From assembly GCA_024653355.1 (NCBI GenBank), contig JANLFQ010000002.1, positions 186,001-250,000 on the forward strand: 64,000 nucleotides of DNA, written 5' to 3'. The notes under the pieces were generated by a model. It searched no databases. It saw only the letters and a program-made list of their open reading frames with translations, and was not told the DNA's origin. The position numbers were made by a program, and so were the translations under genes. Position 1 is the stretch's first letter. Each line of letters starts with the position of its first letter. This stretch comes from a candidate division WOR-3 bacterium. Lineage in GTDB: Bacteria > Hydrothermota > Tepidihabitantia > Tepidihabitantales > Tepidihabitantaceae. Shown one piece after another: positions 8,023 through 42,506 of this stretch.

Positions 8023-9083
8023 AGTTCAACCTCGCTGGAGTCGGAAAGAAGCAGGCGCAGGTCGTGTTCTTTTTCCGGATTCGCCCGGACTTTTACCTGC
8101 CTGCCAATGAGACTGCGGGTTATCCGGTTGACGCCGATGATGGTGCTCTTTTCGAGAACGACCGACCCTTCAATGTGGGAGTTGCGGATGGTGCAGTTGT
8201 TGCCGATTGAGGCGTAGGGTCCTATAGTTGAAGTCTCAACAACGGCACCGGCACCGATCACGGTGGGACCGTAGATTTTTGAATCCACGATTTTGGCGTC
8301 AGGTGCGATGGAAACATTGCCGATAAGTTCGGATTGCGCCACCGTGCCGGCGATAGCGCGCGGGCAGTAGGTGTTGAGGACGATGTGGTTGGCATCAAGG
8401 AGGTCGTCCTTTTTACCGGTGTCGAGCCACCAGCCTTCAATCATAATCGGTTTAACCCGTGCCCCCTGCTCGATTAACGCCTGAATCGCATCGGTGATTT
8501 CCAGTTCATTGCGCGCGGACGGGCGCAGGGTTTCAATCACCGAATGGATTTTCGGTGAGAACAGGTACACACCCACCAGGGCAAGATTGGAGGGCGGATT
8601 TTTGGGCTTTTCCACGAGGCGGACGATGTCGCCCTTTTCCGAGAGAACGGCAACACCAAAGGCAGAAGGGTTCTGGACCGGTTTTAGCATAATCAGGGCA
8701 TCGACATTTTCAGCAAAGAATGTGTTCAGGGCAGATGTTATGCCATCCTGAAGCAGATTGTCACCAAGGTACATCACAAACGGCTCATCACCGAGAAATT
8801 CCCGGGCGATTTTGACCGCATGGGCAAGACCCAGCGGCTCATTTTGCAGTATATAACAGATTTTCGTGTTCCAGTTGGCACCATCGCCGAGGAACTCCTG
8901 GACCGCAGGCCCGGTTTCCGGTGAGATGATTACCCCAACCTCCTTAATCCGGGCAGCAGCGAGATGGTCAAACACATAGGATAAAATCGGGCGATTGGCA
9001 ACCGGGATTAACTGTTTGGCGAATGTATAGGTAAGGGGGCGCAGGCGCGTACCGCGACCGCCACAGAGGACAAGCCCTTTCAT
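8019..9083 (-). CDS. rmlA: Glucose-1-phosphate thymidylyltransferase, long RmlA type
   Basis: 354 residues. The N-terminal nucleotidyltransferase domain has the GGRGTRLRPLT pyrophosphorylase motif and EKPKNPPS. The C-terminal third has left-handed beta-helix hexapeptides (IGAGAVVETS and IGNNCTIRN), as in long RmlA/StrD-type enzymes. It makes dTDP-glucose from dTTP and glucose-1-phosphate. The ATG before KGLVLCGG is chosen; a longer in-frame extension to 9170 crosses the promoter and has no conserved sequence. First gene of the dTDP-sugar operon feeding a surface polysaccharide or glycan. Confidence 0.9.
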   Translation of the reverse strand: MKGLVLCGGRGTRLRPLTYTFAKQLIPVANRPILSYVFDHLAAARIKEVGVIISPETGPAVQEFLGDGANWNTKICYILQNEPLGLAHAVKIAREFLGDEPFVMYLGDNLLQDGITSALNTFFAENVDALIMLKPVQNPSAFGVAVLSEKGDIVRLVEKPKNPPSNLALVGVYLFSPKIHSVIETLRPSARNELEITDAIQALIEQGARVKPIMIEGWWLDTGKKDDLLDANHIVLNTYCPRAIAGTVAQSELIGNVSIAPDAKIVDSKIYGPTVIGAGAVVETSTIGPYASIGNNCTIRNSHIEGSVVLEKSTIIGVNRITRSLIGRQVKVRANPEKEHDLRLLLSDSSEVEL

Positions 9084-9093
9084 AAAACACCTT

Positions 9094-9122
9094 ATTATGG
9101 ATGATACCGCCGATAATGTCAA
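9094..9122 (-). promoter_or_regulatory. Predicted promoter of the rml operon
   Basis: TTGACA, 17-nt spacer, CATAAT, 10 nt to the rmlA ATG. Only a weak AAGGTG lies in the very short leader. Confidence 0.5.
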
Positions 9123-9403
9123 GAAAAGTTGACCGCAAACAAACCGAATCACCTTTCTGAGCGGAGTCAAACGGCTTTAATGATGTAAAACTCAATTTTT
9201 CAAATAGTTACACTATAAAACGGCTGTTTTTTTGCTTTTTTTGTAAAATTTTGATTTTTTCTTGATTTTAGGGGGTGTATTTCGCTAACTTACTACAAAT
9301 TCAACACCTAAAAATACGATAAAAAGATTCAGGTTGGCAGCAATGCGGGCTTTTTTGTGTAAGTTGTTGGAATTCAGCAACTAAACAAGCAAATAAAATA
9401 TCC

Positions 9404-9431
9404 TTGACAGAGGGGGTGGGGTGGGTAAAAT
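9404..9431 (+). promoter_or_regulatory. Promoter with palindromic operator overlapping the -10
   Basis: TTGACA, a G-rich 16-nt spacer, TAAAAT. A perfect 14-bp palindrome GGTAAAATTTTACC (9424-9437) covers the -10 hexamer and the expected start site, as expected for a repressor site. Confidence 0.45.
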
Positions 9432-9437
9432 TTTACC

Positions 9438-9566
9438 GGTTTCGGGTGAGGATAGTTTAAACTTCTTTTTGACATTTTAGCGCTCGAGCCCGACAAAATT
9501 CAGCGGTTACAGGAACCATCGTACCTCCTGACGGCGCCTATGCGGGCGCCGTCATCTTTATTTTTA
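9438..9566 (+). ncRNA. Candidate small RNA, promoter to terminator, no ORF
   Basis: A transcript of about 125 nt is predicted between the promoter at 9404-9431 and the U-tailed hairpin at 9530-9565. No open frame with a ribosome site lies inside it. I do not recognise it as SRP RNA, 6S RNA, tmRNA or any riboswitch consensus I know. It could also be the attenuated leader of the 9857 gene. It contains two short palindromes (GTTTAAAC at 9455 and GCTCGAGC). Confidence 0.35.
9530..9565 (+). terminator. Intrinsic terminator
   Basis: Perfect 9-bp stem GACGGCGCC/GGCGCCGTC (9530-9538, 9545-9553), 6-nt loop, then ATCTTTATTTTT. It ends the predicted small transcript. Confidence 0.7.
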
Positions 9567-9604
9567 CCCGCTTGCTACTTATATTATACTACCCTACGCC
9601 ATTG

Positions 9605-9638
9605 CGCGCCTATTTGCCTGAAACCTGTACCTGATTTA
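9605..9638. repeat. Short imperfect direct repeat, copy 1
   Basis: Shares TTTGCCTGAAACCTG and CTGATTTA with a second copy at 10530-10563. The two copies bracket the 9857-10495 gene. This copy does not form the hairpin that copy 2 does. Confidence 0.4.
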
Positions 9639-9702
9639 CGAGTAAGGTTCTTGGGGTGTAAGCGTTGTCCGTAAGCCACAAGAAACATGCAGCACCTTTT
9701 GC

Positions 9703-9732
9703 TTGACAAGCATCAACTTTTGCCTCTAATTT
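9703..9732 (+). promoter_or_regulatory. Predicted promoter of the YVTN-repeat gene
   Basis: TTGACA, 18-nt spacer, TAATTT, followed by a leader of about 120 nt and an AGGGAGG ribosome site before the ATG at 9857. Confidence 0.4.
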
Positions 9733-9856
9733 ATATGTGGCGATGAGGAGTAATAAAGTTGGAGTTTCAAAAAAGACTAAACTGGCAAAGAAACGGGGAA
9801 GACAAGAGCACAAAATATCAAAGCCCGCATGAGCGGATAAAAAGGGAGGTTATAAA

Positions 9857-10495
9857 ATGTCTGCTCAAAAGAGGCTAAACTGTCTAATAGTGGTGGGGCT
9901 ATTATTTGCCTGCACCATAAATGGACAGTGGCTGAAGACGACAATCCCGGTCGGTGATTATCCTTGTGATATTGCCTGGAACTCAACCAACAACAAGGTC
10001 TACTGCGCTAATGTGTTTAGCGATACCGTCACGGTGATTGATGGTGCAACGAACAGCGTGATTAAAACAATTCCGGTCGGTGATGGTCCCTGTGCTTTTG
10101 CCTATAATCCGATTCAGAACCGGGTTTATGTTGCAAATTATTACGGTTCCAGTATCTCGGTGATTCGTGATTCAATGATTGGCATTGAGGAGGAAGCGGG
10201 GTACAAGAAACAGGAGTCCAAAAATACACTGACCGTGACACCCAACCCCTGCTACGCTGCAACCAGAATCAGATACGGGCTTGCAAAACCCGGCGCAGTA
10301 TCTATTAAGGTTTACAACACCGCGGGCCAATGTGTTAAAACCCTGGTGAGTGCGAAACAGAACCCGGGAATTTACGAACTCAATTGGCAGGGCACGGACA
10401 ACCTCAATCGCAGGCTTAGCCCTGGGATTTACTTCTTAGAAATGGAAGCGGGCGATTATCGGTCGAAATCAAGAATTGTCCTCTTGCAGGATTAA
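9857..10495 (+). CDS. Short secreted YVTN beta-propeller fragment with C-terminal sorting domain
   Basis: 212 residues with a signal peptide, then only two YVTN/NHL-type propeller repeats (KVYCANVFSDTVTVIDGAT and RVYVANYYGSSISVI). About 80 residues of FlgD-Ig/T9SS-type C-terminal domain follow (VTPNPC, VYNTAGQCV, LSPGIYFLEM). Full propellers in this family have 6-8 repeats, so this is unusually short, either a deletion derivative or a multimer-forming unit. Exported to the surface by inference. Start chosen for AGGGAGG at good spacing. A hairpin follows the stop. Confidence 0.8.
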   Translation: MSAQKRLNCLIVVGLLFACTINGQWLKTTIPVGDYPCDIAWNSTNNKVYCANVFSDTVTVIDGATNSVIKTIPVGDGPCAFAYNPIQNRVYVANYYGSSISVIRDSMIGIEEEAGYKKQESKNTLTVTPNPCYAATRIRYGLAKPGAVSIKVYNTAGQCVKTLVSAKQNPGIYELNWQGTDNLNRRLSPGIYFLEMEAGDYRSKSRIVLLQD

Positions 10496-10785
10496 GGGGT
10501 AATAAAGGGTAAAACAAAGGTTTTTTCCCGCGCCAGGTTTGCCTGAAACCTGGCGCTGATTTAAAAGGGGGCGCGGCAGGATACATTTATTCGCATTTAT
10601 TGTATCTCAATCCCAAATAGCAGGGGCGATTCACCTAATAAAACTGGATACGATGTGTTGCCGCTAACATTTAATATTTGACAGACTTAGTCTTTTAATA
10701 TAATTGAAGTAGTAAGCGAAACATGTTACAATAACATGGATGGAGAAAACAGAGTTGCGATGGGCGCTTGAAGTTTGGAGGTAAA
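10496..10785. other. Intergenic region, about 290 bp
   Basis: Contains the hairpin/repeat at 10530-10563 and otherwise AT-rich sequence leading to the ribosome site of the next gene. No gene is seen. Confidence 0.5.
10530..10563 (+). repeat. Hairpin-forming repeat copy 2, possible U-less terminator
   Basis: Perfect 11-bp stem (10530-10540 with 10546-10556) with loop GCCTG, 34 nt past the stop of the 9857 gene and without a T-tract. It is also the second copy of the short repeat at 9605-9638. Confidence 0.5.
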
Positions 10786-38279: not shown

Positions 38280-38353
38280 GGGCGATTAGCTCAGTTGGCG
38301 AGAGCGCCTCCCTTACAAGGAGGAGGTCACCTGTTCAATTCAGGTATCGCCCA
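38280..38353 (+). tRNA. tRNA-Val (anticodon UAC)
   Basis: 74-nt cloverleaf: 7-bp acceptor stem GGGCGAT/ATCGCCC, D arm, anticodon stem CCTCC/GGAGG around loop CTTACAA giving UAC, T arm ACCTG/CAGGT with TTCAATT loop. The CCA end is not encoded, so it must be added by the CCA-adding enzyme. Confidence 0.95.

Positions 38354-40971: not shown

Positions 40972-42506
<1,535 letters not shown>

Follow-up and report, generated by a model that had tools for sequence, protein, structure and literature searches.

The locus at positions 9404 to 9566 of the window raises the question of whether a gene-free stretch carries a gene for a small RNA, and which mRNAs such an RNA would act on. The window is the whole stretch of DNA that was analysed, 64,000 nt in length (G000:C2:186001-250000), from the 1.88-Mb genome G000. 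A sequence-only reading had proposed a small RNA with an operator over its -10 box. The small-RNA reading was strongly supported, as promoter, core and terminator recur in five genomes of two genera and in two gene neighbourhoods; the operator was not. With a probability of about 0.63, the locus is the gene of a trans-encoded base-pairing antisense sRNA of ~124 nt that would repress two chromatin-like proteins. Two unlinked genes are complementary to the core region, and this complementarity is conserved, with moderate statistics.

Organization of the unit

The features of the unit and its upstream region are as follows.

9271 to 9312, plus strand: upstream block A, GGGGGTGTATTTCGCTAACTTACTACAAATTCAACACCTAAA, a candidate regulator site with many invariant columns in 5 genomes
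9355 to 9386, plus strand: upstream block B, TTGTGTAAGTTGTTGGAATTCAGCAACTAAAC, a candidate regulator site conserved in 5 genomes
9404 to 9409, plus strand: -35 hexamer TTGACA, identical in 5/5 homologues
9424 to 9437, no strand: 14-bp palindrome GGTAAAATTTTACC, judged incidental
9426 to 9431, plus strand: -10 hexamer TAAAAT, TAnnAT with a 16-nt spacer in 5/5 homologues
9438 to 9561, plus strand: putative sRNA of ~124 nt, placed from the promoter and terminator positions
9505 to 9517, plus strand: possible small hairpin GGUU-loop-AACC adjoining the recognition stretch
9515 to 9528, plus strand: recognition core ACCAUCGUACCUCC (anti-Shine-Dalgarno and anti-AUG), with U at 9529 next
9529 to 9554, plus strand: terminator hairpin TGACGGCGCCT-ATGC-GGGCGCCGTCA, 11 pairs
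9555 to 9566, plus strand: T-rich terminator tail directly 3' of the hairpin

Several of the features read from the letters at this locus were confirmed. The promoter TTGACA-16-TAAAAT at 9404-9431 matches the consensus at 11 of 12 positions. The hairpin with a U-tract was found as an 11-pair hairpin at 9529-9554 followed by the T-rich tail, and 98.2% of its cells were paired in the alignment of the 5 homologues. The roughly 100 nt described as ORF-free indeed contain no sense ORF of at least 20 aa between promoter and terminator; a 44-aa sense ORF begins within the terminator hairpin, at 9540. The gene-free gap, given as 770 bp, measured 773 bp from the start of an rfbA-like gene (ATG at 9083, minus strand) to an ORF at 9857.

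Scans of positions 8400-10600 found 6 promoter-like sites (3.5 +/- 1.7 in shuffles) and 2 terminator-like sites (3.2 +/- 1.7 in shuffles). By themselves these scans are not above chance; the unit rises above chance because it is conserved.

The bounds of the RNA were set by assuming a start 7 nt past the -10 hexamer and an end 7 nt past the hairpin, and this single rule, applied to all 5 homologues, gave lengths of 110-135 nt. All 14 bases of the core ACCAUCGUACCUCC are invariant in the 5 homologues, and the core is only partly unpaired in folds of the full-length RNA. The GGUU/AACC hairpin keeps 4/4 pairs in 5/5 homologues. Since these pairs never vary, they give no covariation support, and the hairpin is absent from some full-length minimum-energy folds of the homologues.

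Conservation and gene context

A DNA match to the unit was found by blastn in 5 of 61 genomes, its own included. The carriers were G000, G001 and G002 of genus g1, together with G006 and G010 of genus g5, to which G014 also belongs. All five carry TTGACA-16-TAnnAT, the 14-nt core ACCATCGTACCTCC, a GC-rich hairpin and a T-rich tail. A covariance model built on the core region (R1) recovered the unit, with scores of 73-82 bits, in 5 of the order's 28 genomes, so that the conservation check suggested with the first reading came out in favour of its small RNA. The same 5 genomes were matched among 147 of the phylum, in a search whose stricter filters mean that distant relatives may be missed. Neither sequence nor covariance-model searches found the RNA gene in G014. 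Other R1 matches appeared in the order-wide search at E 0.005 to 0.5; two of them (L083 and L076) were rejected, as they look like ordinary terminators without the core when aligned to the model. A search of 4227 Rfam families, with E up to 5 allowed, gave no match to the unit.

The gene context of the unit falls into two types. In G000 and G001 it adjoins the rfbA-like nucleotidyltransferase gene (Pfam NTP_transferase for the copy in the window), and in G001 it lies between this gene and an OsmC gene. In G002, G006 and G010 it is convergent with a TonB-receptor-like barrel gene, identified by Pfam on the G010 copy. G000 carries its barrel gene on a different contig, and the stretch that follows this gene lacks the core. 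The fact that the unit occurs in two different gene contexts indicates that it is a gene of its own. The sequence evidence, with a stand-alone promoter and an intrinsic terminator kept in 5/5 homologues, makes a conserved, non-coding RNA gene a well supported assignment.

Elsewhere in the window, a 16S rRNA gene was located at 40972-42505 with tRNA-Val (38280-38353) 2.6 kb upstream of it. Since no 23S rRNA scored above threshold within the window, the rRNA genes may be unlinked.

Palindrome and upstream blocks

The palindrome over the -10 hexamer is perfect over 14 bp at 9424-9437, as had been claimed, and it has no special status. It is one of 5 perfect 14-bp palindromes in the window, and it is not kept in the relatives. 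The corresponding position reads GATAAAATTTTACC in G001, TACCATTTTTGC in G002 and TACTATTTTAAG in both G006 and G010. Because such palindromes are common in the window and this one is not kept in these four relatives, it gives no evidence for an operator, and an operator over the -10 was rejected.

Blocks A and B, 18-133 bp upstream of the -35 hexamer, are better candidates for regulator sites. They have in common the motif AATTCARCAMCTAAA, whose two copies are 73 bp apart, and with up to 2 mismatches this motif occurs in the window only in these blocks (expected number, 0.61). A direct repeat (D1) of 71% identity was also found at 9298 and 9371.

Complementarity to a lysine-rich ORF

The reverse complement of the core, GGAGGTACGATGGT, reads as ribosome site plus start codon. 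In 5/5 carriers the core is complementary to the Shine-Dalgarno sequence and start codon of a 28-aa lysine-rich, histone-H1-like ORF. The best other place in G000 is C1:5039-5052, where AGGAGGTACGATGGC has one mismatch to the core complement and forms the start of MACMKRGVKKTAKKTAKKTVKKTAKKKK; within 1 mismatch of ACCATCGTACCTCC, the start of this ORF is the only place in G000 besides the RNA gene. The ORF (L008, positions 1501-1650) has TTGACA upstream and a hairpin past its stop, and was present in 6/6 genomes searched. Its product had no Pfam match, and annotation could easily overlook the ORF.

With the U after the core counted in, the duplex is 14 bp long in G000 and in G001; in G002, where the RNA has A in place of this U, it is 13 bp long. 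Both G001 and G002 match the 13-nt sequence exactly at two places only, the RNA gene and the lysine-rich ORF. The site in G006 and G010, GGAGGTACGAATGG, contains one inserted A and forms 14 pairs with a one-base bulge. G014, in which the RNA gene was not found, carries both target sites, GGAGGCACGATGG at the lysine-rich ORF and ACGATGGTTTACTAACC at the second target described below, one of them with a mismatch.

Besides the RNA gene, 24 AGGAGGNNNNATGG sites occur in G000, and the TACG spacer is present in a single one, that of the lysine-rich ORF. About 0.09 such sites with the spacer are expected by chance, the orthologues being non-independent draws.

Longer lysine-rich proteins preceded by GGAGGTCCGATGG were observed in G007 (L038) and G011 (L021) of genus g6. 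The covariance-model search found no RNA gene in either genome; genus g6 could have a related RNA that is changed to match.

Complementarity to the leader of a SWIB-domain gene

The second complementarity lies in the 5' leader of a gene for a protein of 93 aa with a SWIB domain (the G001 copy matches PF02201 at E 5e-16). One R1 match each in G000, G001, G002 and G010 was antisense to this leader, each of them weak (E 0.06 to 0.3). In G002 and G010 the RNA gene and this leader were the sole matches. G000 and G001 each had three matches outside the RNA gene, and the leader was not the best of them, the terminator L083 scoring above it in G001. No SWIB gene was detected in G006.

The leader sequence GGAG-ACGAUGGUUUCU-AACCGC pairs with GCGGUU-AC-AGGAACCAUCGU-AC-CUCC of the RNA. 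The duplex comprises 6 + 12 + 5 bp in G000 and 6 + 12 + 4 bp in G001 and G002; in G010 it is more interrupted, built around a 10-bp block, with 1 mismatch in the first twelve pairs. Some pairs differ between G000 and G002 with pairing kept: pair 10 changes from G-U to A-U, pair 11 is G-C in G000 and A-U in G002, and pair 12 is A-U in G000 and G-C in G002. The number of events behind the two swapped pairs depends on gap placement because the G002 core is one base longer, and they may represent a single event. The leader letters of these pairs also pair within a leader hairpin.

The distribution of the site was compared among SWIB leaders, five distant SWIB-like proteins (34-42% identity) being left aside. 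ACGATGGTTT was present in 5/5 leaders of genera g1 and g5, G014 included, and in 0/6 leaders of genus g3, in which no RNA was found.

Pairing energies and other possible targets

Duplex energies of the RNA with its own two targets ranged from -29.5 to -33.0 kcal/mol in four genomes, before the cost of opening the RNA. In eight comparisons, 0 to 3 of 2000 shuffled cores equalled these energies. Other segments within ~106 kb of own-genome sequence reached -32 to -35 kcal/mol, and the mean for 149 ORF starts with SD-like sequences was -18.8 kcal/mol. Energy alone is not decisive for the targets; position and recurrence at the same orthologues single them out.

These values bear on the possibility that the sRNA is real and its CCUCC core acts as a general anti-Shine-Dalgarno seed with many loose targets, the lysine-rich and SWIB genes being just two of them or in part chance. 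We consider this unlikely. In its favour, the 14-mer has 14 places in G000 with up to 2 mismatches, counting the RNA gene, and the reversed control has 1. A scan of the inspected loci of five genomes, with the 14-mer for G000 and the 13-mer for the other genomes, gave 148 places with up to 2 mismatches, 98 of them with an ORF of at least 25 codons that starts at the site. Many starts with up to 2 mismatches recurred as orthologues between close relatives (G000/G001 and G006/G010), and one such ORF recurred across both genera (L017 in G000, L121 in G006, L203 in G010; start CGAGGGACGATGG or CGAGGTACCATGG; no Pfam match). However, recurrence of 2-mismatch starts between close relatives is expected from descent, and the duplexes of L017, L121 and L203 are weak (-19.8 to -20.1 kcal/mol), near the mean of the SD-like starts. 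Among all 148 places, the lysine-rich ORF was the only start that recurred in more than one genome with no more than 1 mismatch, and the SWIB match runs past the Shine-Dalgarno seed into GCGGUU. The lysine-rich ORF and the SWIB leader are probable targets.

Proposed action of the RNA

An RNA transcribed from the unit would pair through its core with the Shine-Dalgarno sequence and AUG of the lysine-rich mRNA, and ribosome entry would be blocked. The RNA would also pair with the SWIB leader, most likely repressing this gene too, for example through a standby site, activation being the alternative direction there. The upstream blocks would couple synthesis of the RNA to some regulator, and through this coupling the cell could lower both chromatin-like proteins together.

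The site in the SWIB leader covers -47 to -26 from the start codon in G000, over the loop and arms of a hairpin, and leaves the Shine-Dalgarno sequence uncovered. The hairpin under the site was predicted in G000, G002 and G010 and is absent from the minimum-energy folds of G001 and G014. Masking of the site costs a predicted 7.6-10 kcal/mol and the ribosome site stays open. For this reason repression at the SWIB gene is no more than the likelier direction, and activation fits this site as well. An RNA that mainly activates SWIB, melting the leader hairpin and freeing the ribosome site, with the lysine-rich match as a secondary matter, is nevertheless improbable as an account of the whole. Predicted openness of the SWIB Shine-Dalgarno sequence does rise with masking from 0.47 to 0.86 in G000, but it hardly shifts in G002 (0.65 to 0.68) and G010 (0.68 to 0.68), and the lysine-rich pairing, over Shine-Dalgarno sequence and AUG, has the classical geometry of repression.

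The least probable explanation, to which we give very little weight, is that no sRNA is made, the 3' part being a piece of a terminator or leader, or a short peptide gene on the minus strand with GGAGGTACGATGG as ribosome site and start: the reverse complement does resemble a ribosome site with an ATG and begins ORFs that are 18 to 35 codons long, but the antisense peptides form three dissimilar groups (G000/G001, G002 and G006/G010) and were rejected as not conserved across the five genomes, the T-rich tail and TTGACA-16-TAnnAT are plus-strand features of the unit in 5/5 genomes, and the two gene contexts have no common downstream gene in the direction of transcription.

Two further observations concern the SWIB region. 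The SWIB leader is long (L093-L103; G000:C3 ~73030-73117), with predicted hairpins and z values of -3.1 in G000 and -0.7 in G014. Its last hairpin, which directly precedes a GGGCAGAAAGGA-like sequence, is shared by 11 leaders from three genera; 7 of these come from genomes where the sRNA was not found. RNAalifold on these 11 leaders returned only this last leader hairpin and two coding-start pairs, without covariation. It is possible that the predicted hairpin may serve as a cis-regulatory element. In G010, a TonB-receptor-like sequence (L151 and L152; G010:C2:461729-462813) lies approximately 470 bp upstream of SWIB; it has in-frame stops and looks decayed.

Comparison with known systems

A base-pairing repressor of an antisense type, as favoured here, has its closest analogue in IhtA of Chlamydia trachomatis. 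PMC4355289 describes IhtA as a 107-nt RNA ending in a rho-independent terminator; it occludes the initiation codon of histone-like hctA and also represses CTL0322. The CTL0322 product, DdbA, is characterized as small and basic (PMC8343073). According to PMC4355289, the contact around the AUG is made by a 7-nt loop region of IhtA, with no Shine-Dalgarno interaction. IhtA is given as conserved across Chlamydia (PMC3469542), and Chlamydia is stated to have a topoisomerase with a SWIB domain (PMC12445093). The putative RNA of the present unit resembles IhtA in being small and terminator-ended, in its complementarity to the start of a histone-like gene and in having a second candidate target; this is an analogy of logic, compared by description. 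It differs in that the match is 13-14 bp over Shine-Dalgarno sequence and AUG and not a 7-nt loop, in its gene neighbours and in its second target, the SWIB leader.

Two other kinds of RNA share features with the unit. RsaE-like trans-encoded sRNAs have a C-rich anti-Shine-Dalgarno seed and a 3' terminator and act by occlusion of the ribosome site. The unit has a CCUCC-type seed and a 3' terminator like these, and occlusion of the ribosome site is proposed here as well; unlike in these, the complementarity exceeds the Shine-Dalgarno sequence, and no Rfam family was matched. In type I toxin-antitoxin systems, an antisense RNA encoded beside or across the toxin gene acts on a very short ORF for a hydrophobic membrane peptide toxin. 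Complementarity of a small RNA to the start of a very short ORF is common to both. However, the RNA gene of G000 is on contig C2 and the ORF on C1, with neither adjacency nor overlap, and the peptide is lysine-rich and not a hydrophobic membrane peptide.

The unit would represent a new family of trans-acting sRNAs, to judge from the lack of an Rfam match. We put forward more tentatively the view that this undescribed family is dedicated to chromatin-like proteins and that the logic of IhtA was invented independently, outside a known developmental cycle; this is somewhat less probable than its alternatives taken together. Our search of a literature collection found no report on sRNAs of WOR-3, none that brought together SWIB, histone H1-like genes and sRNAs in bacteria, and none on base-pairing sRNAs in metatranscriptomes of uncultured candidate phyla.

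If the proposed regulation is real, control of histone-like proteins by an RNA at the start site would not be peculiar to Chlamydia and would have arisen at least two times, and an uncultured lineage would have two of its predicted chromatin proteins in one regulon. For uncultured bacteria, genomes alone may then be enough to propose sRNA targets, when the sRNA and its targets are tracked across relatives.
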